Made by a program: the position numbers and the translations under genes
Shown here: one piece after another, positions 1,379-33,832 of the stretch
Layout: every line of letters begins with the position of its first letter
Position numbering within the stretch: position 1 is the stretch's first letter
Source of the DNA: Nakamurella lactea DSM 19367
GTDB lineage: Bacteria > Actinomycetota > Actinomycetes > Mycobacteriales > Nakamurellaceae
DNA length: 64,000 bases
Reading direction: 5' to 3'
NCBI RefSeq assembly: GCF_000426645.1
Contig: NZ_AUFT01000007.1
Coordinates: forward strand, 186,001-250,000
The notes under the pieces: model-generated
The model's input: the letters and a program-made list of their open reading frames with translations, nothing else
Databases searched by the model: none
What the model was told of the DNA's origin: nothing

Positions 1379-1963
1379 TCAGCGCGGGACGATGCCTTCC
1401 AGGAAGGTGGAGACGAAGTCGTCGGCGAACCGCTTCATCGAATACTGGTGGGTGGGCTTGAACCAGCGCACCGACAGCCACAAGGAATCGCGGATCAGTC
1501 GGTAGAGCACCCGCGGCGGGATGTCGTCCCGGAACGCGCCCGAGGTGACCCCGGCCTCGATCACCTTGATCCAGGTCTTGGAGATGGTGTTCGCCGCGGT
1601 CTTGATGTGGTCGTACCCCTGCAACGAGGTCAGGTACTTGCCGCTGTTCTGATAGATCTCGGTGGCATGCGGATGCGCCTCGATGACGCTGAGCGACGCC
1701 CGCACCAGTTCGGTGAGCTGGGTACGCGGGTCCGAATGCGCCGTCACCACGGCGGTGTACCGGTCGGTGAGATCGGCCAGATAGGACGACACGATCGCGT
1801 CCACCATCTCGTCCTTGGACTTGAAATGGTGGTAGAGGCTGCCCGACAGGATGCCGACGGCGTCGGCGATCTCGCGCACCGTGGTAGCGACGATTCCCTT
1901 GGCGGCGAACAGATCCGCCGCGTGCTCAAGGATGACGGTGCGGCGGTCGTGCGGTTCGGCCAT
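1379..1963 (-). CDS. kstR2: KstR2-like TetR-family repressor
   Basis: A 194-residue TetR regulator. The N-terminal helix-turn-helix (about residues 24-46, TTVREIADAVGILSGSLYHHF region) and the ligand-domain segments IYQ and YRLIRDSLWLSVRWFKP match what I recall of mycobacterial KstR2, the repressor of the HIP (last two steroid rings) regulon that is relieved by HIP-CoA. The start is ATG 1963, preceded by GAGAGG seven bases upstream, not the longer reading from 2023. An operator matching the KstR2 consensus overlaps its own -10 (2019-2032), so autoregulation is likely. It is divergent from the transporter binding-protein gene, which has its own operator. I name it by recalled similarity plus operator match; no alignment was run. 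Confidence 0.85.
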   Translation of the reverse strand: MAEPHDRRTVILEHAADLFAAKGIVATTVREIADAVGILSGSLYHHFKSKDEMVDAIVSSYLADLTDRYTAVVTAHSDPRTQLTELVRASLSVIEAHPHATEIYQNSGKYLTSLQGYDHIKTAANTISKTWIKVIEAGVTSGAFRDDIPPRVLYRLIRDSLWLSVRWFKPTHQYSMKRFADDFVSTFLEGIVPR

Positions 1964-2018
1964 GACGTTCCTCTCGACGCTGAACCCCGAAGACGACCTG
2001 AAGGTCGGCGAGGTACCG

Positions 2019-2032
2019 ATCAAGCGCTTGTT
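2019..2032 (-). promoter_or_regulatory. KstR2-type operator over the kstR2 promoter
   Basis: ATCAAGCGCTTGTT matches the KstR2 consensus AnCAAGnnCTTGnT at every fixed base. On the minus strand a good -10 (TATAAC, 2030-2035) overlaps the operator edge, with no clear -35. The site lies 56 bases before the kstR2 start codon, as expected of an autorepressed promoter. Confidence 0.85.
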
Positions 2033-2152
2033 ATACCACGCAGATCGGACCGGGCGACCGACGCGGATCCCGGAGAACCCGCAGGTTGTGCAGTCGGTGG
2101 CGTCCCTAGATTACGGCTGTGCAACGGACTGCGCAGCTTCAGTGGATTGCCC

Positions 2153-2199
2153 TTGACCAGCGGCGGGACTGGCCATAGCCTACCGACCAAGCGCTTGCT
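2153..2199 (+). promoter_or_regulatory. Promoter with KstR2-type operator upstream of the ABC binding-protein gene
   Basis: A -35-like TTGACC (2153-2158), 17-base spacer and weak -10 TAGCCT (2176-2181) are followed by the operator ACCAAGCGCTTGCT (2186-2199), which sits at the expected transcription start. The operator is identical to the one at 21196, and spacing from promoter to operator is nearly the same at both places. Binding there would block initiation of the binding-protein gene at 2233. Confidence 0.8.
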
Positions 2200-2232
2200 A
2201 CGGAAGCAAGCGGTCGATGAGGAGGGCTTGCC

Positions 2233-3516
2233 GTGAGAAAGCGTTTCGGAGCCGCTATTGCGATGGTCACGGTGGCCGCCCTGGTCACGGCGGCCTGCAG
2301 TCCAGCGCCGGATGAGAGCAGTCAGAGTTCGACGCCGGCCGCTGCCGGCAGCAGCGCCCAGGGATCGGCGGCCGCGTCAGGTGGCGGCAGCAGCTCCGAG
2401 CCGTATCGCATCGTCCAACTCATCGGCCAGAACCAGCCGGGTGCCGGTGCCCTGAACGCCAAGGCGGCGGTGCAGGCGGCAACGGCGGCCGTCGCGGTGC
2501 TCAACGCGAACGGCGGCGTTCTCGGCCACAAGGTCGAGCTGGAAATCATCGACGACGGCGGCGATCCGACCCAGGCGGTGACCAAGCTTCAGCAGCGACT
2601 GTCGTCCGGAGAAAAACCGAACCTGATCCTGCCGGGCAACACCAGCGCCGAGGCGCTGCCGATGGCACCGATCATCACCGAGGCCGGCATCCTTTCGGTC
2701 CAGCAGGCCAGTGCGGACGCCCTGGACGACCCGGCCAAGTACCCGTACTTCTTCAAGACCCCGCCGGTCCCGGCCAGCTGGGCGCAGTCGCTGGCCGAGT
2801 ACGCGAAGAAGAACGGTGCCACCAAGATCGCGATGATCGCCGGCAAGGATGCCTTCGGTCAGGCCACCGCAGAGGCGACCAGGGTCGCGTTGAAGGATGC
2901 CGGTCTGCAATTGGTCGGCGACGAGACGTACGCCGCCGAGGATCTGGACATGACTGCTCAGCTCGAGCGGCTCAAGGCCACCAACCCGGATCTGCTGTTC
3001 ATGCAGGGGGCCGGGTCGCCCATCGGGTACGTGTTGGAGAGCCGGGAGAAGATCGGCTGGACCGATGTCCCGCTGATCGCCGATTCGACCGCTTCGGTCA
3101 CTTCCCTGCTCAATCAACCGGCACCGGACGGCCTCGTCGGCACCGATCAGGCCAAGAACGTGTCTGTCCAGGTGCTGGCTGCTGCCGTTGAAGGGTCACC
3201 GGGTGCGAACCCTGGAGCCATGGAGAAGATGCTGGCCGCGCTGAAGGCCGTCGGTCCGATCAACCTGCCGCTGAACGTCTACTTCGCCTACGACGCCGTG
3301 ATGCTGGCGGCCAAGGCCGCCGAGGAGACCAACACCATCACCGATGCGGCCGCCCAGGCCAAGTGGCTGGAGACGGTGACGCCCGACACCGAGGGTCTGT
3401 GGGCGCTGACGAAGTACACCTTCACCGCCGAGTCGCACGGCCCCGCTGTCGACACGTCGCAGGTCGAGATCATCCCGGCGACCACTCTGGTCGACGGTCA
3501 ATACCCGAAGTCCTGA
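2233..3516 (+). CDS. Substrate-binding lipoprotein of a Liv-type ABC importer
   Basis: A 427-residue extracytoplasmic binding protein of the branched-chain-amino-acid/amide family (type I periplasmic fold). The N-terminus is a lipoprotein signal (MRKRFGAAIAMVTVAALVTAAC, lipobox TAAC), followed by a Ser/Ala/Gly-rich linker to about residue 55 and then the ligand domain. The start is GTG 2233 with GGAGGG upstream. It is separated from the two ATPase genes by the divergent kstR2 gene. Its promoter carries a perfect KstR2-type operator, so its substrate is probably an intermediate or precursor of the ring-degradation pathway. Known steroid degraders import cholesterol through Mce4, so a KstR2-linked Liv-type importer is unusual. 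The ligand cannot be read from the sequence. Confidence 0.9.
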   Translation: MRKRFGAAIAMVTVAALVTAACSPAPDESSQSSTPAAAGSSAQGSAAASGGGSSSEPYRIVQLIGQNQPGAGALNAKAAVQAATAAVAVLNANGGVLGHKVELEIIDDGGDPTQAVTKLQQRLSSGEKPNLILPGNTSAEALPMAPIITEAGILSVQQASADALDDPAKYPYFFKTPPVPASWAQSLAEYAKKNGATKIAMIAGKDAFGQATAEATRVALKDAGLQLVGDETYAAEDLDMTAQLERLKATNPDLLFMQGAGSPIGYVLESREKIGWTDVPLIADSTASVTSLLNQPAPDGLVGTDQAKNVSVQVLAAAVEGSPGANPGAMEKMLAALKAVGPINLPLNVYFAYDAVMLAAKAAEETNTITDAAAQAKWLETVTPDTEGLWALTKYTFTAESHGPAVDTSQVEIIPATTLVDGQYPKS

Positions 3517-3609: not shown

Positions 3610-4497
3610 ATGAGTACACCGGCAACACCCCTGACACTGGCCGGACGGGCGGTGGTGATCACCGGCGCCGGACGCGGACTGGGAGCCGCCTATGCCGCCG
3701 CGGTCGCCGCCGCGGGTGCCGCCGTGGTGGTCAACGACATCGATGACGCCGAAGCACGGCGAACGGCGGACGCGATCGTCGCCGACGGTGGCCGGGCGGT
3801 GAGTCACCCGGCCGATATCACCGACTGGGAGCAGGCCGACCGGCTGATCGACCGCTGCGTGCAGGAGTTCGGCGCGATCGACGGCCTGGTCAACAACGCC
3901 GGCTACTTCGCGCTGTCCTTGCCACAGGACCAGCAGCCGGAGCCGTTGCGGCGCACCATCGACGTCAACCTGTTCGGCACCGCGGCCTGCGGCGTGCACG
4001 CCCTGCGCCGAATGGTCGAACAGGGTCGCGGGGTGGTGGTCAACGTCACCTCCGGCGAACAGATGGGCAAGACCGCATCGGCGATCTACGGAGCCACGAA
4101 GGCCGGCGTCGCGACGCTCACCTACTCCTGGGCAGAGGACATGCGCGAGCACGGCATCAGGGTGAACGCCATCTCGCCGAATGCCCACACCAGGATGGCC
4201 ACCATCTACGAGCAGTTCCGCGGCGCCGCCGGCAGTCAGAACATCGGGCTCGCCCCGGAACTGAACGCCCCCCTGGTCGTCTACCTGCTGTCCGACCTGA
4301 GCGCTGCCGTCACCGGACAGGTGGTGCGGCTCAACGGGTCCGAGCTGATGCTCGGCACGCACCCGGCCAACCTGGATCCGGTGCGCAGCTGCGACGACTG
4401 GACGGTCGAGGCGATCGCTGAGGTCTTCGACACCGATTTCGTCCAGCGCCTGCAACCGGCGGGCGTGCGCCGGGTGCGCACCGAAGTCCTGGACTGA
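3610..4497 (+). CDS. SDR-family oxidoreductase
   Basis: A 295-residue classical short-chain dehydrogenase/reductase. It has the Rossmann motif TGAGRGLG near residue 20, NNAG, a catalytic Ser in NVTSGE and YGATK (Tyr-x3-Lys). The start is ATG 3610, preceded by GGAAGG; an in-frame extension to 3550 overlaps the terminator and looks non-coding. A C-terminal extension of about 40 residues beyond the SDR core resembles the fold of multifunctional-enzyme-type hydroxyacyl-CoA dehydrogenases, and the NDIDDAEA segment after beta-2 suggests NAD(H). It probably oxidises a hydroxy intermediate of the same pathway; the substrate is unknown. Confidence 0.85.
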   Translation: MSTPATPLTLAGRAVVITGAGRGLGAAYAAAVAAAGAAVVVNDIDDAEARRTADAIVADGGRAVSHPADITDWEQADRLIDRCVQEFGAIDGLVNNAGYFALSLPQDQQPEPLRRTIDVNLFGTAACGVHALRRMVEQGRGVVVNVTSGEQMGKTASAIYGATKAGVATLTYSWAEDMREHGIRVNAISPNAHTRMATIYEQFRGAAGSQNIGLAPELNAPLVVYLLSDLSAAVTGQVVRLNGSELMLGTHPANLDPVRSCDDWTVEAIAEVFDTDFVQRLQPAGVRRVRTEVLD

Positions 4498-4548
4498 CAC
4501 CGGTTGCCGTGCCAGGCGACCACCGAAAACTTCACCGAACGGGGCATC

Positions 4549-5387
4549 GTGACCAGCGCATCCAACGAACCGGGCGGGCCGACGATCGGCCACCAGAACC
4601 TCACCTGCGTCAGCGGGATGGCGGCGGCAGCCTGGCCGCTGCCTGACGAGCTCGCCATGTATCGACGGATCGACACCGACCTGGCCGGCCTCCCGTCGCA
4701 CAAGACGGCCGCCTTCGGACACGACCGGTCGATCGCCGAGATCGCCCGCAGCGGAGTACAGATCGGATATCTGGTCCATCCGCTCACCGCGGATCCGGCC
4801 GATGACGCGGGTTGGGCCGAGCAGCTCGACGGGCTGCGGGCGGCGGTCGACATCGCCGCCGCGGTCGACGCAGCGCGGGTCTACCTGACCTCCGGGCCGT
4901 CCGGGGGTGCCAGCTGGGAGCAGGCGGCGGAGTTGTTCGTCGGCCGGCTGACGCCGGTGGTCGAGTATGCGGGCGAGCGCGGCATCCGGTTGGCCGTGGA
5001 GAACACCCTGCCGGTGCGCTGCGACCTGAGCTTCACCCACAGTGTGCGGGACGCCATGGCGCTGGCCAGGATGTCCGGCATGGGCCTCTGCCTCGACTTC
5101 TACTGCTGCTGGCAGGAGGGTGGACTGGCCGAGCGGCTACGCGAAGGACTCGATCTGGTCGAACTGGTCCAGGTGAGCGATTTCGTCGTCGGCACGCAGA
5201 CTTTTCCGAACCGCTGGGTGCCCGGTGACGCCGATCTGCCGATCGCCAGGCTGCTGGCGGAGCTGTTGGCCCTGGGTACTCCGGGATCGTCGATCTCGAA
5301 CTGGCCGGACCGGAGATCGAGCGGGAGGGCGCCGAGTCTGCGCTGCGCCGCGGCGTCGGCTGGTTGCGGCGAGAGTTGGCTCGCTGA
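4549..5387 (+). CDS. Xylose-isomerase-like TIM-barrel protein, frameshifted near its 3' end
   Basis: Encodes a sugar-phosphate-isomerase/epimerase-like TIM barrel of about 279 residues. Motifs are RLAVENTLP, LCLDFYCCW and LVQVSDF, typical metal-site strands of the family. The reading frame breaks near 5275-5277: the upstream frame runs on to 5472 with unrelated sequence, while the +1 frame from TAC 5277 continues as YSGIVDLELAGPEIEREG and stops at TGA 5387, which is the expected last strand and helix. One base is missing from a GGN codon. The start is uncertain; GTG 4549 follows ACGGGG, and TTG 4504 is also possible. The role in the island is unknown; relatives include isomerases and inosose dehydratases. 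The break may be a sequencing error, since the amidase at 19197 has the same kind of lesion. Confidence 0.7.
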
Positions 5388-5451
5388 ACCCGATCGGCGC
5401 CCGGACGGCAACTCCGGCGCGGCAAACCCGACACAGATGACGCGCCGCCTC

Positions 5452-5480
5452 TTGACACCAAGCAAGCGCTAGCTTCTAAT
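5452..5480 (+). promoter_or_regulatory. Near-consensus promoter with KstR2-like box in its spacer
   Basis: TTGACA (5452-5457), exactly 17 bases, then TCTAAT (5475-5480) is the best sigma-A-type promoter in the window. Its spacer contains AGCAAGCGCTAGCT (5461-5474), a KstR2-type box with one mismatch. It points rightwards. No plus-strand gene follows until the monooxygenase at 6275, so a transcript would first run antisense through the padR-like gene. Confidence 0.65.
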
Positions 5481-5600: not shown

Positions 5601-6218
5601 CTATGGAGTCGCGGCCGGGTGTCCGGTCTCGTCGATGTCGGCCGTCGCCAGCTCGCGCAGATCCTGCAGCAGCGCATCGGTCAACGCGATCTCCGCCTGG
5701 TAGTAGCGATGCGACCAACGCAGCGCGAGCTCAGGGTAGGCCCAGGTGCCGCGGCGGGCTCCCTGCTCGTGCGCCGCGGATCGTTCGGCGAGCTCGACCA
5801 TTCGGGCCCGGTGGGCCGCCAGCAGTTCTTCCAGCTGCTCGGGTTCGGCCAGGTGACCGAGCCAGACCCGCATCAGCAGCGAGTGTTTCAGCACGGATGG
5901 ATCCAGCGGCGCGCTGGACACCCACTGCTGCACGGCATCCCGGCCGGCCGGAGTGATCGCGTACACCCGGCGGTCGTGCGGTCCGTCGGTGTGCTCGTCG
6001 CGGGAGGTGACGAACCCCAGGGCCGCCAACCGCTTCAGCTGGCTGTAGATCTGGCTGAAACTCGGACTCCAGTAGAAGAACTTGATGCTCTCCTCGGCCC
6101 ACTTCTTCAGGTCGTAGCCGGACAACTCCTCGCCGAAGGCCAGCAGACCCAGTACCGCGTAGCTGGTGGTCGGCAGTGCCGGCGGCTCGACCGCGTGCTC
6201 GCTGGGGTCGGCTGGCAT
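5601..6218 (-). CDS. PadR-family transcriptional regulator
   Basis: A 205-residue PadR regulator. The N-terminal winged helix (about residues 18-95: YAVLGLLAFGEELSGYDLKK, SQIYSQLKRLAALGFV, YAITPAGRDAVQQW) is followed by a C-terminal helical dimerisation domain rich in Glu/Leu/Arg. PadR proteins usually repress a divergent or nearby detoxification or catabolic gene and respond to small aromatic or lipophilic ligands. It is divergent from the Baeyer-Villiger monooxygenase gene with only 56 bases between start codons, so joint control of both is likely. A rightward promoter at 5452 would transcribe its antisense strand. Confidence 0.88.
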   Translation of the reverse strand: MPADPSEHAVEPPALPTTSYAVLGLLAFGEELSGYDLKKWAEESIKFFYWSPSFSQIYSQLKRLAALGFVTSRDEHTDGPHDRRVYAITPAGRDAVQQWVSSAPLDPSVLKHSLLMRVWLGHLAEPEQLEELLAAHRARMVELAERSAAHEQGARRGTWAYPELALRWSHRYYQAEIALTDALLQDLRELATADIDETGHPAATP

Positions 6219-6274
6219 GGGCAGACCCTACCGCGCCGGCCTACGCCGACGATCGAGAAACGAAGGGACATCGG

Positions 6275-7957
6275 ATGACAGCCAGCGACGGGTCGGATAC
6301 CGCCGGTCAGGCGGCACCGGCGCAACGGCAGGTCGAGGCGCTGGTGATCGGTCTCGGCTTCGCCGGACTCTCCGCCGTGCACCAGCTCCGCGAGCGAGGT
6401 GTCGACGTGCATGCGCTCGACGCCGCCGGCGGCCCGGGCGGGATCTGGTACTGGAACCGATACCCGGGGGCGCGCTGCGATGTGCAGAGCCTGTGGTACT
6501 CGTACGGGTTCTCCGACGAACTGCAACAGGAGTGGGAGTGGAGCGAGAAGTACGCAAGGCAGCCGGAGATCCTGCGTTACGCCGAACATGTCACCGACAG
6601 ATTCGACCTACGTCGGGACTGCACGTTCTCCACCAGGGTCACGGCGGCCGAGTTCGACGCCGGGGCCGACCGCTGGGAGGTCGTCACCGACACCGGAACC
6701 CGGATCAGGGCCCGGTTTCTGGTCACCGCAACGGGATGTCTGTCGTCATCCCGGATTCCCGAGCTGACGAACGCCGATGCCTTCCGCGGGCGGACCTTCC
6801 ACACCGGTCAGTGGCCGCACCAGCCGGTCGATTTCACCGGTCGCCGGGTCGGAGTGATCGGCACCGGATCGTCGGGTATCCAGATCATTCCGATGCTGGC
6901 CGCGGTCGCCGACAGGCTGACGGTCTTCCAGCGGACGGCCAATTTCTCGATCCCGGCCCGCAATCGGCCCTACACCCCCGAGGAACAGCGCTCGGTGAAG
7001 GCGGACTATCCCGGGATCCGGGTGGCGCAACGCCGCTCCCATGCCGGCGCACTGCACTCCGGCACCGGCAGGTCGGTACTGGACGTCACCCAGGAGCAGC
7101 TCGCGATCGAGTTGGAAAGCCGCTGGGAGGCAGGCGGAACGGCGTTCATGGGATCGTTCACCGACATCCTGTCCGACGACCGGGCCAACCACCTGGTCGC
7201 CGAGTTCGCCCGGGACAAGATCCGCCGGATCGTCACCGATCCGGAGACCGCGGAGAAGCTCGTTCCGCGCGGGCATCCGATCGGCGCCAAGCGGATCTGC
7301 GTCGACGACCACTACTTCGAGACGTTCAATCGCGACAACGTCGACCTGGTCGACGTCAACGCCGAGGCACTGAGCGGATTCACCGAGAACGGGCTGTGCG
7401 CCGGCAGCCGTGAGATCGCGCTGGACGACGTGGTCTTCGCGACCGGCTACGACGCAATGACCGGTGCACTGACCCGGATGGGTATCCGCGGGAGGGACGG
7501 CTTGAGCCTGGAACAGGCTTGGCGCGCCGGGCCGCGGTCCTATCTCGGCATTGCCGTGCACGGCTTCCCCAATCTGTTCATCGCCGCCGGACCCGGCAGC
7601 CCGTCGGTGATGGTGAACGGCGTCATGGCCGGTGAACAACATGCGGAGTGGATCGCCGACGCGATCGCCTTCCTCGGGGCGAACGGCATCAGCCGGATCG
7701 AGGCCCGGCGCGCCGACCAGGATGCCTGGGTGCAGCACGTCAACGACGTCGCAGCGAAAACCCTGTTCCCGAAGGCGAACTCCTGGTACATGGGCGCCAA
7801 CGTGCCCGGCAAGCCGCGGGTCTTCATGCCGTATACGGGTGGTTTCAACAACTATGTCGACACCTGCGCCAGGGTCGCCGCCGACGGCTACGCCGGCTTC
7901 GACCTGTCCGCCCAGAGCACCGGCGCCGCGGCTGCCAGGTTGCGCGGTTCGCGATGA
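6275..7957 (+). CDS. Type I Baeyer-Villiger monooxygenase
   Basis: A 560-residue flavin enzyme that inserts oxygen next to a ketone, giving an ester or lactone at the expense of NADPH and O2. An FAD-binding GLGFAG (residues 26-31) is followed by GGIWYWNRYPGARCD, the Baeyer-Villiger fingerprint FxGxxxHxxxWP (FRGRTFHTGQWP, residues 170-181) and a NADPH-binding GTGSSG (196-201). Length fits cyclohexanone- and steroid-type enzymes. ATG 6275 follows AAGGGA. It heads a long operon and overlaps the next gene as ATGA. With an esterase-like protein two genes on, it suggests oxygenation and opening of an alicyclic ketone. The substrate is not evident; a steroid D-ring ketone or hydrindanone would suit the context. 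Confidence 0.93.
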   Translation: MTASDGSDTAGQAAPAQRQVEALVIGLGFAGLSAVHQLRERGVDVHALDAAGGPGGIWYWNRYPGARCDVQSLWYSYGFSDELQQEWEWSEKYARQPEILRYAEHVTDRFDLRRDCTFSTRVTAAEFDAGADRWEVVTDTGTRIRARFLVTATGCLSSSRIPELTNADAFRGRTFHTGQWPHQPVDFTGRRVGVIGTGSSGIQIIPMLAAVADRLTVFQRTANFSIPARNRPYTPEEQRSVKADYPGIRVAQRRSHAGALHSGTGRSVLDVTQEQLAIELESRWEAGGTAFMGSFTDILSDDRANHLVAEFARDKIRRIVTDPETAEKLVPRGHPIGAKRICVDDHYFETFNRDNVDLVDVNAEALSGFTENGLCAGSREIALDDVVFATGYDAMTGALTRMGIRGRDGLSLEQAWRAGPRSYLGIAVHGFPNLFIAAGPGSPSVMVNGVMAGEQHAEWIADAIAFLGANGISRIEARRADQDAWVQHVNDVAAKTLFPKANSWYMGANVPGKPRVFMPYTGGFNNYVDTCARVAADGYAGFDLSAQSTGAAAARLRGSR

Positions 7958-11376: not shown

Positions 11377-11422
11377 CCGTCGCCCGCCGCTCCGAAAACT
11401 ACCCAGGATGATGAGGCACCGG

Positions 11423-25762: not shown

Positions 25763-26230
25763 ATGGCCAACCCCGATTCCCTCGGCAACGAGGGCACCGA
25801 CTTCCGGATGGACATCGAACGCGGCAAGATCCGCGAGTTCGCCCGGGCCACCGGGTCGGAGAACCCGGCCTACCTGGGCACCGAGAACCCGGTGAGCCCA
25901 CCGACTTTCCTGACGACAACGTTCTTCTGGCACGATGGCGACTCCAACCCGTGGCCGACGGTGGAACTCGACCAGCAGCGTGGCCTGCACGCCGAGCAGG
26001 AGTACACCTTCTTCGGGCCACCGCCGCGGGCCGGACAGAAGCTGACCTGCCGGTCGCGGATCAGCGACTACTTCACCAAGCAAGGCCGCCGCGGCGGCGA
26101 GATGACCTTCGTGGTGATGACCACCGACTTCCACGACGAGGACGGAAAGCTGGTGGCCCAGGCCAAGATGACCGGCGTCGAGACTGCTCGGCCACCGGCC
26201 GAGGATGCGACCTCAGGGGAGGATTCGTGA
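25763..26230 (+). CDS. MaoC N-terminal-type (FAS1-like) dehydratase subunit
   Basis: A 155-residue hot-dog protein of the non-catalytic FAS1-dehydratase half: IERGKIREFARATGSENPAY, SPPTFLTTTFFW, GLHAEQEYTFFGPPPRAGQ, TDFHDEDGKLVAQAK. It forms pairs with a catalytic MaoC subunit, here the next gene, which it overlaps by four bases. ATG 25763 follows AAAGGAGG. Such (R)-specific hydratase pairs are not part of the mycobacterial KstR2 regulon, so this pair may handle a substrate-specific beta-oxidation step. Confidence 0.84.
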   Translation: MANPDSLGNEGTDFRMDIERGKIREFARATGSENPAYLGTENPVSPPTFLTTTFFWHDGDSNPWPTVELDQQRGLHAEQEYTFFGPPPRAGQKLTCRSRISDYFTKQGRRGGEMTFVVMTTDFHDEDGKLVAQAKMTGVETARPPAEDATSGEDS

Positions 26231-26709
26231 GCGACCAGACCGTGAGCCCTGAGACCGCGGACCCCGCCGCTTCGGCGGAGTTCGCCGTTCCGTCGGCACC
26301 GGCGGCGTGGGTGGTCGGCCCGGCGACCCGCACCGACTTCGTTCGCTACCAGGGCGCCTCGGGCGACATGAACCCGATCCACCACGACGAGGAGTTCGCC
26401 AAGGGCGCCGGCTTCCCGACGCCGTTCGCCGTCGGCATGTGGCAGGCAAGCCTGCTGGGCACGTACGCCACCGACTGGCTCGGCGCCGAGAACGTGCGCA
26501 ACTTCCGGATCCGCTTCCTCGAGCAGGTCTGGCCCGGCGACACCCTCACCTGCAGTGGTGAAGTCACCAAGCAGTACCTGCAGGATGGTGAGCGGCGCGT
26601 CGACGTCGAGCTGACCTGCCTGCGGCAGACCGGCGGCAAGGCCGTCACCGTCTGGGCGACCTTCGTCGTCCCGGAGCCCGGTACCGATCAGGAGAACTCC
26701 CATGGCTGA
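26227..26709 (+). CDS. MaoC-type (R)-enoyl-CoA hydratase catalytic subunit
   Basis: A 160-residue hot-dog protein with the hydratase-2 motif (GDMNPIHHDEEFAKGAGFPTP), including the catalytic Asp-x4-His. GTG 26227 overlaps the partner gene as GTGA, and the end overlaps echA20 by eight bases. It would hydrate a trans-2-enoyl-CoA to the (R)-3-hydroxyacyl-CoA as a heterodimer with the protein at 25763. Confidence 0.86.
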   Translation: MSDQTVSPETADPAASAEFAVPSAPAAWVVGPATRTDFVRYQGASGDMNPIHHDEEFAKGAGFPTPFAVGMWQASLLGTYATDWLGAENVRNFRIRFLEQVWPGDTLTCSGEVTKQYLQDGERRVDVELTCLRQTGGKAVTVWATFVVPEPGTDQENSHG

Positions 26710-27505
26710 TGGCCCCGACATGATCACCACGACTGTGCTTGCGAACGGCGTCGCCGAGATCGTGATGGACAATCCACCGGTCAACGCGCTGCCGGTCGCC
26801 GGTTGGTTCGCGCTGGCGGCGGCGCTGGACGCCGCGGGAGCAAACCCGGATGTCCGCGCGGTGGTGTTGCGCGCCGAGGGCCGCGGATTCAATGCCGGGG
26901 TCGACATCAAGGAGATGCAGCGCACCGACGGGTTCACCGCGCTGCTCGGCGCGAACCACGGCTGCTACGCCGCCTTCAAGGCCGTCTACGAGTGTCCGGT
27001 GCCGGTTGTCGTTGCGGTGAACGGCTTCTGCCTCGGGGGCGGAATCGGCCTGTCCGGTAACGCCGACGTGATCGTCGCCGCCGACGATGCCACCTTCGGG
27101 CTGCCAGAGGTCGAGCGGGGTGCCCTCGGCGCCGCTACCCACCTTTCCCGACTGGTGCCGCAACATCGGATGCGCGCCATGGTCTATACCGCCGCCACCA
27201 TCACCGCCCAGGAACTGCACGCCTACGGCTCGGTGCATTCTGTGGTGCCGCAGGCGGAGCTGCGCGACACCGCGCTGGCGGTGGCCGGCAACATCGCCGA
27301 AAAGGACCCGACGGTGATCCGCGCGGCCAAGGCGTCGCTCAACGGCATCGACCCGGTGGATGTGAATCGCAGCTACCGCTTCGAGCAGGGCTTCACCTTC
27401 GAGCTGAACCTGGCCGGCGTCGCCGACCGGATCCGCGACGAATTCGCCGGCACCAGCAAGGCCGTCACGGGTCAGGCGGACACCGGCGAACAGCCCGACA
27501 ACTGA
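26702..27505 (+). CDS. echA20: EchA20, steroid ring hydrolase of the crotonase fold
   Basis: A 267-residue crotonase-fold enzyme. VVLRAEGRGFNAGVDIKEMQ, FTALLGANHGCYAAFKAVYE, PEVERGALGAATHLSRLVPQH and EQGFTFELNLAGVAD are nearly the sequence I recall for mycobacterial EchA20, which opens ring D of HIEC-CoA by hydrolysis of a C-C bond. The start ATG 26702 overlaps the MaoC gene. The ~20-residue C-terminal tail after the conserved end is extra. Together with ipdAB it marks a pathway for the last two steroid-type rings. Confidence 0.93.
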   Translation: MADGPDMITTTVLANGVAEIVMDNPPVNALPVAGWFALAAALDAAGANPDVRAVVLRAEGRGFNAGVDIKEMQRTDGFTALLGANHGCYAAFKAVYECPVPVVVAVNGFCLGGGIGLSGNADVIVAADDATFGLPEVERGALGAATHLSRLVPQHRMRAMVYTAATITAQELHAYGSVHSVVPQAELRDTALAVAGNIAEKDPTVIRAAKASLNGIDPVDVNRSYRFEQGFTFELNLAGVADRIRDEFAGTSKAVTGQADTGEQPDN

Positions 27506-27518: not shown

Positions 27519-28496
27519 ATGAAAGCCATGCAGTGCCGCACGCTTGGCGGCCCGGAGAACCTGACCGAAACCGTGTTGACCGACCCGGTCGCCGGCGACG
27601 GTGAGGTGGTGGTCGACGTGCAGGCGGCCGGGGTCAATTTCCCGGACGGCCTGATCGTCGCCGGTACCTACCAGACCAGACACGAGCCGCCGTTCGTTCC
27701 CGGTTGCGAGGTCGCCGGCACCGTCCGGACAATCGGAGCGGGGGTCACCGGCCTCACGCCGGGCGACCGGGTCACCGCCTTCTGCGGCCTCGGCGGCTAT
27801 GCCGAGCAGGTCGCGGTCGCCGCGACCAAGGTGCACCGGATCCCCGATGAGCTCGACATCGTCGACGCTGCAACGGTTCCCGTTGTGTACGGCACCTCGT
27901 ACCACGGCCTGGTGGACCGGGCGAACCTGCAGCCGGGCGAGACCCTGCTGGTGCTCGGCGCCTCCGGCGGCGTCGGGCTCACCGCTGTCCAGATCGGTAA
28001 GGCGCTGGGCGCCAGGGTGATCGCCGCCGCCTCGTCGCCGGAGAAGCTGCAATTGGCAGCCGACCACCGCGCCGACGAACTGATCGACTACCGCGCGCAG
28101 GACCTCGCGGCCCGGTTGAGGGAGCTGGCGCCGAAAGGTGTCGACGTGGTGTACGACCCGGTCGGGGGTGACGCAGCGCAGGCCGCGGTGAAGTCGCTGG
28201 CCTGGGGCGGCCGGTTCCTGACCGTCGGCTACGCCTCGGGGGACATCCCCCGGGTGGGTCTCAACCGTTTGTTGCTCAAGGAGGGCGCCGCCCTTGGTGT
28301 GCTCTGGGGGGCGTGGGCCGGGCGCGAACCCGAAGCCAACTCCGCCAACATGTCCCGCCTGTTCGAGCTGTTCACCGCCGGCAGCCTGCGGCCGGTGGTC
28401 AGTCGCAGCTATCCATTGGCCGATGCATCAGCGGCGCTGGCCGCGGTGATGGGCCGTGCGGCTCTCGGCAAGATCGCCCTGCGGATCGAGGAATAG
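27519..28496 (+). CDS. Zinc-independent quinone oxidoreductase-like MDR enzyme
   Basis: A 325-residue medium-chain reductase of the NADPH:quinone oxidoreductase type. Motifs: GVNFPDGLIVAGTYQ, PGCEVAGTV, the cofactor loop LGASGGVGLTAVQIGKALGA and YDPVGGDAAQAAVKSLAWGG. No zinc-ligand cysteines are present. It lies 13 bases after echA20 and its stop overlaps the next start by one base, so it is an operon member. Relatives reduce enones or enoyl-CoAs; in this setting it may reduce a ring double bond. No equivalent is known to me in the mycobacterial HIP cluster. Confidence 0.83.
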   Translation: MKAMQCRTLGGPENLTETVLTDPVAGDGEVVVDVQAAGVNFPDGLIVAGTYQTRHEPPFVPGCEVAGTVRTIGAGVTGLTPGDRVTAFCGLGGYAEQVAVAATKVHRIPDELDIVDAATVPVVYGTSYHGLVDRANLQPGETLLVLGASGGVGLTAVQIGKALGARVIAAASSPEKLQLAADHRADELIDYRAQDLAARLRELAPKGVDVVYDPVGGDAAQAAVKSLAWGGRFLTVGYASGDIPRVGLNRLLLKEGAALGVLWGAWAGREPEANSANMSRLFELFTAGSLRPVVSRSYPLADASAALAAVMGRAALGKIALRIEE

Positions 28497-29752
28497 TGAA
28501 TCAGCAAGCAGCGGGCACGACACCCGACGCAGTGATGGATCTCGGCCCCGGTGAGCGGACCCTGGAGGTTCTCGCCGAGCTCGAGGATTTCATGCAGACG
28601 CATGTCTACCCGGCCGAGCCGGTGTATGCCGAGCAGTTGGAGGCCGCCGGGCCACGCAGCCATGTGCTGCCGCCGGTGGTCGAAGAGCTCAAGGTCGAGG
28701 CCCGACGGCGCGGTCTGTGGAACCTGTTCCTGCCGAGCATCTCGGGTCTGACCAACCTGCAGTACAGCTACATCGCCGAGGTCACCGGTCGCTCGCCGTA
28801 CCTGGCGCCGGAAGCGCTGAATTGCTCGGCGCCGTCCACCGGGAACATGGAGTTGCTGCACCTGTTCGGCACCGACGAGCAGAAGAAGCGCTGGCTGGAA
28901 CCGCTGCTGGACGGCCGTACCCGTTCCGGCTTCTCGATGACCGAACCCGATGTCGCGTCCTCCGACGCCCGCAACATCCGCACCTCGATCGTCCGGGACG
29001 GCGACGAGTATGTGATCAACGGGCGCAAGTGGTGGACCACCGGTTCCGCCGACCCTCGCTGCGAGATCCTCGTGGTGATGGGCAAATCGGATCCGAACGC
29101 CGACACCTACCGGCAGCAGTCGATGATCCTGGTCCCGATCGACACCCCCGGCGTCGAGATCATCCGGTCGCTGCCGATCTTCGGCTACCACGACCAACAG
29201 GGGCACTGCGAGATCAGCTACACCGACGTGCGGGTCCCGGTCGGCAATCTGCTCGGCGGCGAGGGCGAAGGCTTCGCGATCGCCCAGGCCCGGTTGGGCC
29301 CCGGCCGGATCCACCACGCCATGCGCTGCATCGGGATGGCCGAGCGCGGCCTGGAACTGATGGTCAAGCGGGTGATGAGCCGGGAGGCGTTCGGCGGCCC
29401 GATCTCCGATCAGGGTGTGGTCAGGACCTGGATCGCCGAATCCAGGATGGAGATCGAGCAGGCCAGGCTGTTGGTCCTGAAGACCGCCTGGATGATCGAC
29501 CGGGTCGGGCCCAAGGGTGCGGCCACCGAGATCGCCGCGATCAAGGTGGTGGCGCCCAGGGTGGCACGGACGGTCCTTGACCGCTCGATCCAGGCGCACG
29601 GCGGCGGGGGCGTCACCGACGACTTCCCGATCGCCCGGATGTGGGCCAGCGCCAGGATTCTCGGCATCGCCGATGGGCCGGACGAAGTCCACATCCGATC
29701 CGTGGCGCGCGAACAGCTGCGCCGCTACCGGCCGGCCAGGACGGAAGGCTGA
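28496..29752 (+). CDS. Acyl-CoA dehydrogenase, ACAD10/11 (FadE2)-like
   Basis: A 418-residue acyl-CoA dehydrogenase of the ACAD10/ACAD11 type. The N-terminus (LEDFMQTHVYPAEPVYAEQ, EARRRGLWNLFLP) is diagnostic, followed by SMTEPDVASSDARNI, INGRKWWTTGS and the C-terminal IQAHGGGGVTDDFPI. GTG 28496 overlaps the previous stop by one base with GAGGA just before; ATG 28535 is an alternative. It oxidises an acyl-CoA to the enoyl-CoA, feeding ETF. It differs clearly from FadE30, which is absent here. Confidence 0.87.
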   Translation: MNQQAAGTTPDAVMDLGPGERTLEVLAELEDFMQTHVYPAEPVYAEQLEAAGPRSHVLPPVVEELKVEARRRGLWNLFLPSISGLTNLQYSYIAEVTGRSPYLAPEALNCSAPSTGNMELLHLFGTDEQKKRWLEPLLDGRTRSGFSMTEPDVASSDARNIRTSIVRDGDEYVINGRKWWTTGSADPRCEILVVMGKSDPNADTYRQQSMILVPIDTPGVEIIRSLPIFGYHDQQGHCEISYTDVRVPVGNLLGGEGEGFAIAQARLGPGRIHHAMRCIGMAERGLELMVKRVMSREAFGGPISDQGVVRTWIAESRMEIEQARLLVLKTAWMIDRVGPKGAATEIAAIKVVAPRVARTVLDRSIQAHGGGGVTDDFPIARMWASARILGIADGPDEVHIRSVAREQLRRYRPARTEG

Positions 29753-29757
29753 CGCGG

Positions 29758-30897
29758 ATGGACCTGAGCTGGAGCGATTCCGAGCAGGCCTTCAGGGCCG
29801 AAGCCAGGGACTGGCTCGCCGGGCATGTTCCTGCCCGGCCGCTGCCGTCCGGTGACACCGCTGAGGGTTTCGCGGCGCACCTGGAGTGGGAGCGGGCGCT
29901 GCACGCGGACCGCTGGTCGGTGGTGTCGTGGCCGGAGGCCTATGGCGGGCGGGACGCCTCGCTCTGGGAATGGTTGATCTTCGAGGAGGAGTACTACCGG
30001 GCCGGGGCTCCGCAGCGGGTCACCCAGAACGGCATCTTCCTGTTGGCTCCCACCCTCTTCGCCTTCGGCAGCCGGCAGCAGCAGGACACCTTGTTGCCGA
30101 GAATGGCGGCCGCGCAGGACTTGTGGTGCCAGGGCTGGTCGGAGCCGGGTGCCGGCAGCGATCTCGCCGGGATCCGCAGTGCGGCGGTCCGGGACGAGCA
30201 GGCCGGCGGTTGGCGGCTGTCGGGACAGAAGACCTGGACCACTCGCGGCGCGTTCTGCACGCACCTGTTCGGGCTGTTCCGCACCGATCCGCAGGCGCAG
30301 CGCCACCACGGGCTGACGTACTTCCTGGTTCCGTTGGACACCGAGGGCGTCACCGTCCGCGGCTTCGATCGGTTGGACGGCGACGAGGGGTTCGCCGAGG
30401 TCTTCTTCACTGACGCGTTCGTCCCGGACAGCGCGGTGCTCGGCGGGTTGAACGAGGGCTGGAAGGTGGCGATGGCGACTACCGGGTCCGAGCGTGGCCT
30501 GACGCTGCGGTCGCCCGGCCGGTTCCTGCAGGCGGCCGACCGGCTGGTCGAGCTGGCGGCATCGAATCCGGAGTCGAGCACCCCGGTACTGACCGATCGG
30601 GTAGTTCGCAGCTGGATGCAGGCGCAGGCCTACCAGCAGTTCACCCTGGCGCAGGTCACCGACATCGTCGAGGAACGTCCGACCGGTGCGCGTTCCAGTC
30701 TGAACAAGGTCTACTGGTCCGAGCTCGACATCGAGTTGCACGAGACCGCGATGGAGCTGCTCGGACCCGATGCCCAGCTGGACTCAGACTGGTCCCGTGG
30801 CTTCCAGTTCTCGTTGGCCGGGCCGATCTATGCGGGTACCAACGAGATTCAGCGCAATATCATCGCCGAGCGCGTGCTCGGCCTGCCGAGGAAGTAA
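29758..30897 (+). CDS. fadE31: Acyl-CoA dehydrogenase, FadE31-like
   Basis: A 379-residue acyl-CoA dehydrogenase. SWPEAYGGRDASLWEWLIFEEEYYRAGAP broken over its helices, WSEPGAGSDLAGIRS, RTDPQAQRHHGLTYF and GPIYAGTNEIQRNIIAERVLGLPR match recalled FadE31 of the KstR2 regulon. FadE31 forms alpha2beta2 enzymes with the short FadE32 or FadE33. The short dehydrogenase nine bases downstream fits that partner. It starts at ATG 29758, five bases after the previous stop. Confidence 0.82.
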   Translation: MDLSWSDSEQAFRAEARDWLAGHVPARPLPSGDTAEGFAAHLEWERALHADRWSVVSWPEAYGGRDASLWEWLIFEEEYYRAGAPQRVTQNGIFLLAPTLFAFGSRQQQDTLLPRMAAAQDLWCQGWSEPGAGSDLAGIRSAAVRDEQAGGWRLSGQKTWTTRGAFCTHLFGLFRTDPQAQRHHGLTYFLVPLDTEGVTVRGFDRLDGDEGFAEVFFTDAFVPDSAVLGGLNEGWKVAMATTGSERGLTLRSPGRFLQAADRLVELAASNPESSTPVLTDRVVRSWMQAQAYQQFTLAQVTDIVEERPTGARSSLNKVYWSELDIELHETAMELLGPDAQLDSDWSRGFQFSLAGPIYAGTNEIQRNIIAERVLGLPRK

Positions 30898-30906
30898 GCC
30901 AAGGAC

Positions 30907-31917
30907 ATGCGCTTCGCACTGACGACCGAGCAGCAGGAACTGCACCAGGTGGTGGCGCAGTTGCTGGGCGATGCCTGTACCCCCGACGTGGTGCGGGCCG
31001 GAACCGGCTCCCCGCAGGCGGATCGGCTGTATGCCGGGCTGGTCGACCTGGGCGCCACCGGGCTGTTGGTCGACGAGGAGGCCGGTGGCCTCGGGTTGGA
31101 CGAGAACTACCTGGTTCCGGTCCTGGTCGAGATCGGCCGGGCCGCGGCACCGCTACCGTTGGTCGACACCCTTGCGGTGGCACCAGGTCTGCTGTCGGCC
31201 ACCGGTCGGGCCGAGGACGTGCTCGCTGGAACCGTCTGCGTGGCAGCGGATCCGGTCGGCAACGGACTGGTTCGATTCGGCAGCCGGGCCGATCTACTGC
31301 TGCAGGGCGGCTGGGGTGGCTCCGGCGTCATCCGGGTCGTCGACCTGGCCGGCGCGCAACGGGAGCCCCAGGCGGCCGTCGACCCGGCCGCCGATCTGCA
31401 GCGGATCAGCTTCGGCACCATCATCGCCGAGATCGACGACCCCGCCCTGGTGCGGACCGCGTGGTTGCGAGGGGTGCTCGGGTCGGCGGCCGAGCTGGTC
31501 GGGTTGTCCCGCCGGATGCTCGACCTGACGGTCGGATACGTGAAGGAACGTCAGCAGTTCGGGGTGCCGATCGGCAGTTTCCAGGCCGTCAAGCATCACT
31601 TGGCGTCGGCGTTGCTCGCCGTCGAGTTCGCCGCCCCGACGGTGTCCGCGGCCGGCTATGCCCTGGCCACCGGCGACGAGCAGGCATCGGTGGCGGTAGC
31701 AACGGCGAAGGCGCTGGCCTCGGACGCCGCGGTGCAGGTGGCCAGGGCAACGCTGCAATGTCACGGTGCGATCGCCTATACCACCGAGTACGACTGGCAG
31801 CTGTTCGCCAAGCGGGCCTGGGCGGTGGCGGCGCAGTGGGGGACGGCCGCCTGGCATCGTGATGCGGTGGCCAGAGCGCTCGGCCTGCCGGCCAGCGGAA
31901 CATCGCCTGCACACTGA
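30907..31917 (+). CDS. Short acyl-CoA dehydrogenase subunit, FadE32/FadE33-like
   Basis: A 336-residue acyl-CoA dehydrogenase, shorter than the usual 380 residues and with a reduced middle domain. C-terminal motifs VGYVKERQQFGVPIGSFQAVKHHLA and TLQCHGAIAYTTEYDWQLFAKRAW are kept, but the N-terminal TExxAGSD-type substrate loop is not. Shortened partners of this kind (FadE32, FadE33) complete the FadE31 heterotetramer. ATG 30907 follows AAGGAC. Which of the two it equals cannot be told without alignment. Confidence 0.82.
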   Translation: MRFALTTEQQELHQVVAQLLGDACTPDVVRAGTGSPQADRLYAGLVDLGATGLLVDEEAGGLGLDENYLVPVLVEIGRAAAPLPLVDTLAVAPGLLSATGRAEDVLAGTVCVAADPVGNGLVRFGSRADLLLQGGWGGSGVIRVVDLAGAQREPQAAVDPAADLQRISFGTIIAEIDDPALVRTAWLRGVLGSAAELVGLSRRMLDLTVGYVKERQQFGVPIGSFQAVKHHLASALLAVEFAAPTVSAAGYALATGDEQASVAVATAKALASDAAVQVARATLQCHGAIAYTTEYDWQLFAKRAWAVAAQWGTAAWHRDAVARALGLPASGTSPAH

Positions 31918-31971: not shown

Positions 31972-32820
31972 ATGAGCGAGACCGAGAACGAGGTCGTCAC
32001 CTACGAAGTGCGTGGCGCGGTTGCGGTGGTCACGATGAACCGGCCCGAGTACCGCAATGCCCAGAATTCCGCGATGACCTATGCCCTCGACGAGGCCTTC
32101 TACCGGGCCAACGCCGACGACGAGGTGAAGGTGATCGTGCTGGCCGGCTCCGGTAAGCACTTCTCCGCCGGGCACGACATCGGTACGCCGGGCCGGGACA
32201 TCGACTCCTCGTTCGAGCGTAAGGCCGGGCTGTGGTGGGACCACGTCGGCAAGGAGGGCGTCGACAGCCGGTTCGCCCGCGAATCGGAGGTGTACCTGGG
32301 GATGTGCCGGCGCTGGCGGGAGATGCCCAAGCCGATGATCGCGATGGTGCAGGGAGCCTGCATCGCCGGCGCGCTGATGCTGGCCTGGTGTTCCGATTTG
32401 ATCGTGGCGTCCGACGATGCGTTCTTCGCCGATCCCGTTGTCCGGATGGGGATCCCGGGCGTCGAGTACTTCGCCCATCCCTGGGTGATGGGTCCGCGGT
32501 TCGCCAAGGAGTTCCTGTTCACCGGCGACCGGATGCCGGCCGATCGGGCGCTGGCGATCGGGATGGTGAACCGGGTGGTCCCGCGTGACGAGCTGGAGTC
32601 CGAGACTTTCGCCCTCGCCGACCGGATCGCGCAGATGCCGCGGTTGGGGTTGGCGCTGACCAAGAAGGCCGTCAATCAGGCCGAGGATCTGATGGGCCTG
32701 CGTACCGGGATGGACTCGGTGTTCGGGCTGCACCACGCCGCGCACGCCCACAACGCCGAGGTCGGTGCCGACTCACTGGCCGGTCAGACCGCCAAATCCA
32801 TGCGCGATTCCGCCACCTGA
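31972..32820 (+). CDS. Enoyl-CoA hydratase family protein
   Basis: A 282-residue crotonase-fold enzyme, last gene of the ipd operon. It has MNRPEYRNAQNSAMTYALDE, SGKHFSAGHDIGTPGR, an atypical long insertion (about residues 75-95) and VQGACIAGALMLAWCSDL. GAGGAG precedes ATG 31972, and the 54-base gap upstream is the widest inside the late part of the operon. The AGALML segment replaces the usual GGGxxL. A hydratase is the safest call; the place after FadE31-type genes suggests it hydrates their product. Confidence 0.85.
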   Translation: MSETENEVVTYEVRGAVAVVTMNRPEYRNAQNSAMTYALDEAFYRANADDEVKVIVLAGSGKHFSAGHDIGTPGRDIDSSFERKAGLWWDHVGKEGVDSRFARESEVYLGMCRRWREMPKPMIAMVQGACIAGALMLAWCSDLIVASDDAFFADPVVRMGIPGVEYFAHPWVMGPRFAKEFLFTGDRMPADRALAIGMVNRVVPRDELESETFALADRIAQMPRLGLALTKKAVNQAEDLMGLRTGMDSVFGLHHAAHAHNAEVGADSLAGQTAKSMRDSAT

Positions 32821-32832
32821 CCCCACCCCGCA

Positions 32833-32929
32833 CGCTTATCAACATCGCAGGCGCTTGCGAAATCGACTACTTCTGTCACACCCGTCCCAGATCGGCCACG
32901 TTCGTAAGCGCCTGCGAAGTTGATAAGCG
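32833..32929. repeat. Intact copy (B) of a ~97-bp palindromic element
   Basis: Left arm 32833-32861 (CGCTTATCAACATCGCAG and on) and right arm 32901-32929 are inverted repeats of 29 bases with two mismatches, around a 39-base centre. It fills the gap between two convergent genes, so it could also act as a bidirectional terminator, though no T-run follows. Each arm contains a small near-palindrome (CGCAGGCGCTTGCG). A degenerate copy lies at 14972. Confidence 0.8.
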
Positions 32930-32943
32930 CCGAGGCGGGGGGT

Positions 32944-33807
32944 TCAGCTGGACCAAGCGGCGTCGGGAAGCAACTCCTTGAGTGCGGTCGCCTGCTCTAC
33001 CCAGTGCTCGACGTTGTCGGCCCGCAGGGCGACATTCAGCACGGTGGCTCCGGCTTCGCGGTGCCGGCCGGCGAGATCGATGGTGCGCTCGGCCTCCCGG
33101 GTCGGGTCCAGAGGCGGCAGCGGCAGGATGACGTCGAAGCCGTCGGGGCTGACGCCTCGTGCCAGCAGCTCGGCCACCCGGTCGGGGCTCAGTCCGAACG
33201 GCGCCCAGCCGGTGGCCAGTTCCCGCGCCCGGCGCAGGGACCGCGGCGTGTAGCCGCCGATCCAGAGCGGCACCTCCGTCCGGGGTGCGTGCGGGTCGAC
33301 GACGAAGTCGTCGAACTCGAAGTGCGGCCCGCGATAACTCGGGGTCTCCCGGCCCCACGAGGCGCGCAGCGCGGCGATCGCATCGTCGGCGATGGCCCCG
33401 CGGTTGGCGAAATCCTTGCCCAGCAAGGCGAATTCGGCGGCTCCGCTGCCGACGCCGAGGCCGAGAATCACCCGGCCGCCGGAGAGTCGGTCGAGCGTGC
33501 CGTAGCTCTTGGCGATGTCCAGTGGGTGGTGGTAGCCCAGCACCAGCACGTGGGTTGCCAGGGCGATCCGCTCGGTCTTCGCGGCCAGAAAACCCAGGGT
33601 TGCCAACGGATCCCAGTAGGTGCCGCCGCCCTTGGCGGCGATCGCGGTCGGCACCGCGGTGTGCTCGCTGCAGGTCAGGTGGTGATAGCCGAGCCGGTCC
33701 GCGGCTTGTGCGATCGTGACGATCTCGGCAGTTCCGGCGCCGACCTCCCATGGGCTGAACTGGCCGGTCGGCCGGAACACGACGGGGGATAGGACGCCGA
33801 TGCGCAT
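32944..33807 (-). CDS. LLM-class (F420/FMN) oxidoreductase under a KstR2-type operator
   Basis: A 287-residue luciferase-like monooxygenase-fold protein. MRIGVLSPVVFRPTGQFSPW at the N-terminus is followed by HLTCSEHTAVP, LATHVLVLGYHHPLDIAKSYGTLDRLS and GVGSGAAEFALLG, typical of F420-dependent LLM oxidoreductases. A perfect KstR2-type operator lies only 12 bases before its start codon, so it belongs to the putative regulon even though transcribed towards the ipd operon. F420 enzymes of this type reduce or oxidise ketones and alcohols; a ring ketone or enone step is possible. Confidence 0.87.
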   Translation of the reverse strand: MRIGVLSPVVFRPTGQFSPWEVGAGTAEIVTIAQAADRLGYHHLTCSEHTAVPTAIAAKGGGTYWDPLATLGFLAAKTERIALATHVLVLGYHHPLDIAKSYGTLDRLSGGRVILGLGVGSGAAEFALLGKDFANRGAIADDAIAALRASWGRETPSYRGPHFEFDDFVVDPHAPRTEVPLWIGGYTPRSLRRARELATGWAPFGLSPDRVAELLARGVSPDGFDVILPLPPLDPTREAERTIDLAGRHREAGATVLNVALRADNVEHWVEQATALKELLPDAAWSS

Positions 33808-33818
33808 CTTCGGAGCCT

Positions 33819-33832
33819 AGCAAGCGCTTGGT
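33819..33832 (-). promoter_or_regulatory. KstR2-type operator upstream of the LLM oxidoreductase gene
   Basis: AGCAAGCGCTTGGT matches AnCAAGnnCTTGnT at all fixed bases. It ends 12 bases upstream of the start codon at 33807, so transcription must begin within or near it. I see no convincing -10 or -35 on this strand. Confidence 0.8.

Follow-up and report, generated by a model that had tools for sequence, protein, structure and literature searches.

In Nakamurella lactea DSM 19367, a TetR-type repressor of the KstR2 family (gene g089) is proposed to act as the master repressor of both the import and the degradation of C/D-ring steroid acids, probably the leftovers of others, a reading to which we give a probability of roughly 60%. 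The DNA analyzed, hereafter the window, is a stretch of 64,000 nucleotides (C5:186001-250000) of the draft genome (G000; 5.82 Mb, 27 contigs, 98.27% complete), and positions without a contig prefix refer to it. Genes with g numbers were called with our own codon-usage script, and gene starts are therefore approximate. The initial annotation of this DNA had described a KstR2-type regulon with a wider gene set than the mycobacterial one. Judged by sequence comparison, such a regulon appears well supported because of the identity of its operators, their concentration in one island, their position relative to promoters, their conservation in other genera, and the presence under the boxes of genes for the degradation of HIP, the two-ring C/D remnant of steroids.

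Number and placement of the predicted operators

A scan of the window returned the copies of AnCAAGnnCTTGnT that had been listed initially, four of them exact (2019, 2186, 21196, and 33819) and one, at 5461, with a single mismatch. With at most one mismatch, seven matches are present (four exact, three with one mismatch) against 0.32 expected, a number reached in none of 100 shuffles. The one-mismatch matches at 13988 and 47974 were rejected as operators, both being inside called genes. The copy at 5461 had also been counted as an operator; it runs across the stop codon of g092 (4504-5472) and sits between convergent genes, and therefore is not a promoter operator.

2019..2032, no strand: KstR2 box, exact, 55 bp upstream of the repressor gene, suggesting autoregulation; counterpart with one change in the congener G016
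2186..2199, no strand: KstR2 box, exact, 63 bp upstream of a Liv-type binding protein gene; equal to the 14-mer proven by gel shift in Mycobacterium tuberculosis
5461..5474, no strand: one-mismatch box, judged not to be an operator
21196..21209, no strand: KstR2 box, exact, between g107 and the ipdA operon, 40 bp upstream of ipdA; 14 of 14 letters kept in G016
33819..33832, no strand: KstR2 box, exact, 11 bp upstream of the LLM gene, at the right end of the island; counterpart in G016

When the motif scan was extended to the whole genome, 14 exact boxes were found, compared with 5 for a reversed control pattern. The boxes are not scattered, as 13 of the 14 lie within the 105.5 kb of C5:114283-219832 (binomial P 3e-22), and the window therefore shows just the right third of this island. 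The boxed regulon described at the outset thus stands, but its size of 32 kb does not: the real span is 105 kb and reaches 72 kb further left than the window start. The only exact box beyond the island, C20:11828, is 61 bp upstream of an ABC operon encoding a sugar-type binding protein, an ATPase, a permease, and an SMP-30-like protein.

All 13 island boxes are intergenic although 95.5% of the island is coding (P 3e-18), and 17 genes start no more than 120 bp from an exact island box. Two weaker heads, g029 (near a box with one mismatch) and g085 (189 bp from its box), bring the total to 19. As the gap tolerated inside an operon is varied from 30 to 150 bp, the number of island genes (102 in all) downstream of the 17 heads ranges from 36 to 72, and downstream of the 19 from 43 to 79. 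On either strand, 10 of the 13 island boxes equal the 14-mer of the Rv3557c/Rv3558 operator, which purified M. tuberculosis KstR2 was reported to bind in gel shifts (Kendall 2010, PMC3068626).

The boxes at 2186 and 21196 are identical and, in agreement with the initial annotation, share a similar promoter context, in which TTGAC is followed after 17 and 16 nt, respectively, by TAnnnT, which stops 4 nt short of the box; the box would therefore overlap the transcription start. An arrangement of this kind (TTGAC, 16-17 nt, TAnnnT ending 2-7 nt before the box) is found at 6 of the 19 heads (g030, g033, g055, g064, g090, and g108), where covering of the start site by the repressor would follow naturally. 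A clear -35/-10 pair of that kind was not seen at the other 13 heads; the mean promoter score of the 19 heads is above that of all 200 shuffles.

The repressor and its phylogenetic placement

1379..1963, minus strand: g089, KstR2-family TetR repressor of 194 amino acids, by PDB and tree matches

In a comparison with the PDB, g089 matched 2ibd (E 7e-45), which we take to be KstR2 and whose record reads possible transcriptional regulator, then the KstR2 entries 4w97/4w1u (E 4e-41), with the next match at 6e-20. The nearest other TetR protein of the genome reaches 44 bits, that is, a close paralog was not found in G000. Trees of 70 and 63 rows were calculated, the second without seven rows (four TetR proteins of the genome itself, KstR, g052, and L042). 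In both, g089 groups in a subclade that also holds rows of Dactylosporangium, Virgisporangium, Sphaerimonospora, Enemella, and others and is separate from the clade with Mycobacterium, Gordonia, and most Rhodococcus rows. The subclade comprises 23 rows and its support, 88/88, is not strong; constraining g089 to the mycobacterial/rhodococcal KstR2 clade was rejected in the approximately unbiased test (p 0.0025), the groups having been named after the first tree. The repressor thus groups with KstR2 and not with non-steroid TetR proteins, as had been supposed, but not within the canonical clade, and we file it as a KstR2-family protein of a distinct subclade. Elsewhere, three KstR2-type repressors (L025, L046, and L049) lie within 16 kb in G061, a member of another family (G061:C1:3540532-3556095), and locus L143 of Amycolatopsis rhizosphaerae holds three genes nearest to KstR2.

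The placement outside the canonical clade would also fit if g089 were a KstR2 paralog sensing another CoA ester, in an island serving a non-steroid alicyclic acid for which ipd genes were recruited. Many island genes have no counterpart in the steroid stretch of Mycobacterium sp. OTB74 used for comparison below, and among the 12 named subclade members 3 lack a close HIP gene within the DNA examined, the other 9 having at least one (48 of 80 for all named KstR2-type loci). However, the letters of the operator are kept, counterparts of 14 HIP-regulon genes are present, and IpdB retains its active-site Gly, which makes this explanation improbable to us.

HIP genes under the boxes

The island was compared with an 80-kb stretch of OTB74, whose HIP genes were named on the assumption that they follow the gene order of M. 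tuberculosis, and reciprocity was judged within the compared stretches. Thirteen of the 14 genes in Table 1 of PMC5380842 have reciprocal best OTB74 matches in the island: Rv3548c (g066, 58% identity), Rv3549c (g080, 46%), EchA20 (67%), IpdA (58%), IpdB (49%), IpdC (62%), FadA6 (g081, 62%), KstR2 (40%), IpdF (60%), FadE30 (g067, 60%), FadE31 (51%), FadE32 (37%), and FadE33 (g068, 36%). For FadD3, which was not met in the OTB74 stretch, a family model points to g082 (641 bits, just below the cut-off of 657). All 14 counterparts are in operons headed by a box (C5:162987, 178901, 188019, and 207196). The early assignments of ipdA, ipdB, ipdC, ipdF, echA20, and fadE31 were borne out, those of IpdA and IpdB by solved structures and the rest by reciprocal best OTB74 match.

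20308..21081, minus strand: g107, an enoyl-CoA hydratase gene transcribed away from ipdA, its start at a distance of 114 bp from the box; EchA19-like by NCBIfam at 226 bits (cut-off 400)
21250..22113, plus strand: IpdA, g108; PDB IpdA 6con, E 6e-102
22110..22904, plus strand: IpdB, g109; PDB 6co6_B, E 4e-79
22901..24013, plus strand: IpdC, FabK/nitronate monooxygenase family; 62% reciprocal best match
24048..24923, plus strand: SDR g111, Rv3548c-like, not a reciprocal best match
24916..25734, plus strand: IpdF; NF005880 422 (cut-off 336), 60% reciprocal best match
25763..26709, plus strand: MaoC-type pair g113 and g114; Pfam FAS1_DH_region and MaoC
26702..27505, plus strand: EchA20; NF005925 422 (cut-off 260), 67% reciprocal best match
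27519..28496, plus strand: MDR quinone-reductase-like g116; TIGR02824 241 bits (cut-off 297), G016 counterpart 68%
28535..31917, plus strand: three acyl-CoA dehydrogenases, g117, FadE31-like g118, and FadE32-like g119, by family models and OTB74 comparison
31972..32820, plus strand: enoyl-CoA hydratase g120; NF006140 464 (cut-off 280)
32944..33807, minus strand: F420-type LLM oxidoreductase g121; TIGR03619 227 (cut-off 166.9)

IpdB has Gly at the site of the CoA-transferase catalytic Glu: in alignments counted by hand, residue G66 of g109 pairs with Gly57 of 6co6_B and with a Glu in 1poi_B, and Gly at the position of the β-subunit catalytic Glu is described as the mark of the IpdAB hydrolases (PMC5380842). 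Of the extra members proposed for the regulon, the Liv-type protein at 2263, the LLM enzyme at 32944, the MaoC pair at 25763/26227, and the MDR reductase at 27519 are box-headed, whereas the MaoC pair at 16385/16949 is not.

Conservation in other genomes

At E 1e-20, the repressor was detected in 2 of 17 genomes of the genus (G000 and G016) and IpdA in 4, with close copies only in G000 and G016 (100% and 83%) and relatives of 30-32% in G011 and G014. For nine of the 13 island boxes, G016 has a corresponding box next to the counterpart genes, at 95% identity compared with 36% in the ungapped flanks. Among the other four, three belong to a block missing from the equivalent place in G016, and the one before g064 corresponds to a one-mismatch box (C204:126585). 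In nine other genomes or contig sets, 38 of 40 boxes are outside called genes and two inside (G083:206945 and G024:137999); this tabulation leaves out one-mismatch boxes without AAGCGCTT, among them four in G061 and C204:126585 in G016. Boxes precede counterparts of island genes in G061, Enemella dayhoffiae, Dactylosporangium aurantiacum, and four genomes of a third family, and the box upstream of ipdA recurs in G061, Enemella (G085), and Dactylosporangium (G083).

Markers of A/B-ring degradation

The best match to the KshA model (PF19298, KshA_C) in G000 scores 77 bits, compared with 276-320 in 17 of the 24 genomes tested, and six of the 24 have no match (G016, two Dactylosporangium, Enemella, Nonomuraea sp. 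G32, and Planotetraspora). Of 26 KstR2 matches, the weaker ones of G044, G045, G054, and G062 were dropped, leaving 22 members of the order with a KstR2-type repressor (E up to 3e-39), and KshA was not found in 3 of these 22 (G000, G016, and G072, the last entered in the KshA count only). KstD, for which we take model NF009479 to stand (E 1e-40), was not found in G000, G016, D. aurantiacum, or Enemella and is present in 17 of 21 genomes (287-1068 bits). HsaC, with the dihydroxybiphenyl dioxygenase model TIGR03213 as its presumed stand-in (E 1e-20), was not found in G000, G016, D. aurantiacum, Nonomuraea, or Planotetraspora and is present in 16 of 21, Enemella reaching 120 bits at best and the other 15 genomes 257-394. 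All three markers were not found in 3 of the 21: G000, G016, and D. aurantiacum. As none of the three was found in G000, an acid of the C/D rings produced by other bacteria is the most likely substrate, rather than an intact steroid.

The 27 contigs, the completeness of the assembly, and the weak KshA-family match of 77 bits could also fit an ordinary KstR2 regulon of a full degrader, with KshA, KstD, and HsaC lost from the draft or too diverged. The KshA-like protein, a Rieske protein on C7, is 26% identical to OTB74 KshA and was rejected as KshA, and the three markers are jointly undetected in both congeners, whose assemblies have completeness 98 and 100, and in D. aurantiacum, leaving this explanation very improbable. 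Matches to KstR do not exceed 109 bits in G000, compared with 165-426 for true copies; one related genome of the order has a KstR with 90% identity to the OTB74 protein. A hidden KstR regulon was likewise rejected, as TnnAACnnGTTnnA, which we take to be the KstR motif, occurs at 29 scattered sites, with 15 for the reversed control, and the KstR-like g052 is 35% identical.

Liv-type importers

1..508, plus strand: 3' part of the fused LivM-LivG gene g087 (C5:184676-186508); NCBIfam LivG-like
508..1245, plus strand: LivF-type ABC ATPase g088; NCBIfam UrtE/LivF-like, below cut-offs
2263..3516, plus strand: Liv-type substrate-binding protein g090; NCBIfam PRK15404, 63 bits, below cut-off
3652..4497, plus strand: SDR oxidoreductase g091, 135 bp downstream of g090; G016 counterpart 68%
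4504..5472, plus strand: xylose-isomerase-like TIM barrel protein g092; Pfam PF01261

The operon g086-g088 is headed by box C5:183745, which has a counterpart in G016 and G061. The LivM-LivG fusion g087 (610 amino acids) recurs in Streptomyces antnestii (616 amino acids) and seemingly in G061. In S. antnestii, an exact box is followed after 60 bp by genes for a binding protein, LivH, the LivMG fusion, and LivF, relatives of g086-g088; in A. rhizosphaerae, an exact box is followed after 28 bp by a binding protein and LivH, where the contig piece stops. Relatives of g090 (34-36%) are box-headed in these two species. For a second Liv-type set, g074-g078, a box is present in G016 and also in Enemella, there at a distance of 195 bp and shared with ipdA; the relatives of this set in Sphaerimonospora thailandensis have a one-mismatch box only. 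Six genomes from five genera (G000, G016, G061, Enemella, A. rhizosphaerae, and S. antnestii) thus carry exact boxes upstream of Liv-type ABC genes, and this recurrence is the best sequence-level evidence that the importers would belong to the regulon. Steroid uptake systems outside Mce4-bearing mycolic acid bacteria were described as unidentified as of 2016 (PMC4810484), and the two box-headed Liv-type importers are concrete candidates for this role.

Side-chain block, boxless cassette, and a possible upper route

Much of the block g030-g051 has counterparts in Enemella. It encodes CasG-like (647 bits, cut-off 750) and CasI-like ligases (629 and 652, cut-off 900), a FadA5-family thiolase (589, over the cut-off of 515), and a lipid-transfer protein (679, over 469). 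An igr-like operon within it is headed by a KstR2 box, and substrates may therefore still bear a bile-acid-type side chain. Genes g033-g038 correspond to the set of the igr operon (ChsE1E2, ChsH1H2, and Ltp2) and CasG/CasI, with Ltp2 at 65%, FadE29 at 51%, and a CasI-like ligase at the head. In mycobacteria the igr operon is under KstR; here and in Enemella its relative has a KstR2 box instead. The KstR-like gene g052 (L004:8640-9170; C5:150640-151170) is divergent, adjoins a FadE34-like gene and the side-chain block, and is perhaps a KstR3-type regulator. Boxes were not found for g048-g052 and g070-g073.

5601..20267, no strand: cassette g093-g106, 14 genes, with no KstR2 box at its head

The operon at 6.3-20.3 kb had been included in the regulon, an assignment that we withdraw, as no KstR2 box was found at the head of 6275-20267. 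The cassette encodes a PadR regulator, a flavin monooxygenase, a thiamine pyrophosphate (TPP) enzyme, a LipP1-type esterase, acyl-CoA dehydrogenases, CaiB transferases, a MaoC pair, a thiolase, and an amidase. It was not found at the same place in G016, where the counterparts of g092 and g107 adjoin, and is probably under its own regulation.

Such enzymes raise the alternative that a complete steroid or polycyclic isoprenoid is degraded, with the A/B rings opened by unlike enzymes of the cassette, the left island, or C7 and the product passed to the HIP pathway. The flavin monooxygenase, TPP, CaiB, LLM, and retro-aldol-type enzymes of the island would suit this explanation, as would the CasG/CasI-like ligases and the FadA5-like thiolase for the side chain. 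A second catabolic cluster (G000:C7:160000-210000; L185-L188), with its own TetR and without exact KstR2 boxes, encodes the KshA-like Rieske protein, an IpdAB-like pair (35/32% to g108/g109), an acyl-CoA dehydrogenase pair, and Liv-type ABC genes. G016, however, keeps the HIP genes and boxes without the cassette and the g026-g060 block at that place (the rest of G016 was not searched for them); a PF19298 match and a second IpdA (E 1e-20) were not found genome-wide in G016, nor was a KstD or HsaC-type candidate found in G000 at the limits used. We consider degradation of the complete compound unlikely, though the KshA-like and IpdAB-like proteins of C7 lend it some weight.

Proposed mechanism and comparison with known systems

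In the proposed role of KstR2 as master repressor, g089 would bind 13 near-identical palindromes over 105 kb and silence up to 19 operons at or near their transcription starts. A HIP-type acid, in part still bearing a bile-acid-type side chain, would enter through the Liv-type ABC importers and be activated to its CoA ester by the FadD3-like ligase. This ester, presumably HIP-CoA, would release the repressor, and the importers, the HIP ring-opening enzymes (IpdABCF, EchA20, FadE30-33, and FadA6), and the accessory enzymes would be made.

Several observations weigh against this proposal. Depending on the gap rule, box-headed operons hold only 36 to 79 of the 102 island genes. The block of CasG-, CasI-, FadA5-, and FadE34-like proteins together with g052 suggests that some substrates are larger than HIP, and the C7 cluster makes another upper route possible. 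The absence of the markers depends on the models and E-value limits, and the roles of NF009479 and TIGR03213 are those we presume. G061 and S. antnestii, which have KshA, likewise carry box-headed Liv importers, and these are therefore not specific to feeding on leftovers. Finally, the Enemella box lies 195 bp from the transporter gene, and a gene 285 bp away was reported as unregulated (Kendall 2010, PMC3068626).

The KstR2 (HIP) regulon of M. tuberculosis, Mycobacterium smegmatis, and Rhodococcus jostii (PMC3068626, PMC5380842) shares with the island the repressor family, the 14-bp palindrome, autoregulation, and the 14 gene counterparts. As described there, the mycobacterial/R. jostii regulon comprises 3 boxes and 15 genes, whereas the island has 13 boxes and 36 to 79 genes; it adds ABC importers, LLM/SnoaL/SDR modules, and the side-chain operon, and, unlike in the hosts of the known regulon, KstR and the 9,10-seco markers were not found in G000. 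In Nocardioides simplex VKM Ac-2033D, KstR2 sites were predicted in 29 operons (PMC7807495, PMC7593942), and a wide KstR2 regulon as such is therefore not new, but that strain, unlike G000, is reported to have KstR and full steroid degradation clusters. CamABCD/CamM of R. jostii RHA1 serve the re-uptake of excreted bile acid metabolites including perhydroindanes (PMC8399759); unlike them, the island importers carry KstR2 boxes.

R. jostii is reported to excrete and take up again perhydroindane metabolites of cholate, and bile acid degraders to cross-feed (PMC8399759). More tentatively, at somewhat less than even odds, N. lactea may represent a class of second-half steroid eaters that do not open the A/B rings, live on C/D acids from others, have KstR2 as the sole master regulator, import HIP through Liv-type systems, and keep an igr-type operon under KstR2. 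Steroid breakdown would then be divided between species, and the HIP pathway would be a trait of its own, beyond the tail of the 9,10-seco pathway. In the portions of the literature covered, no KstR2 master regulator in genomes without 9,10-seco enzymes, no HIP-only degraders, and no KstR2-controlled Liv-type importers were found, which is no proof of absence.

Among minor observations, two SnoaL proteins of the island, considered as possible bile-acid dehydratases, gave weak matches to LinA, scytalone dehydratase, and BaiE (E 3e-5 to 0.08). Searches of plasmids with the repressor alone gave relatives of at most 42.5% identity among the matches listed (10 records), and with IpdA alone relatives in 32 records.

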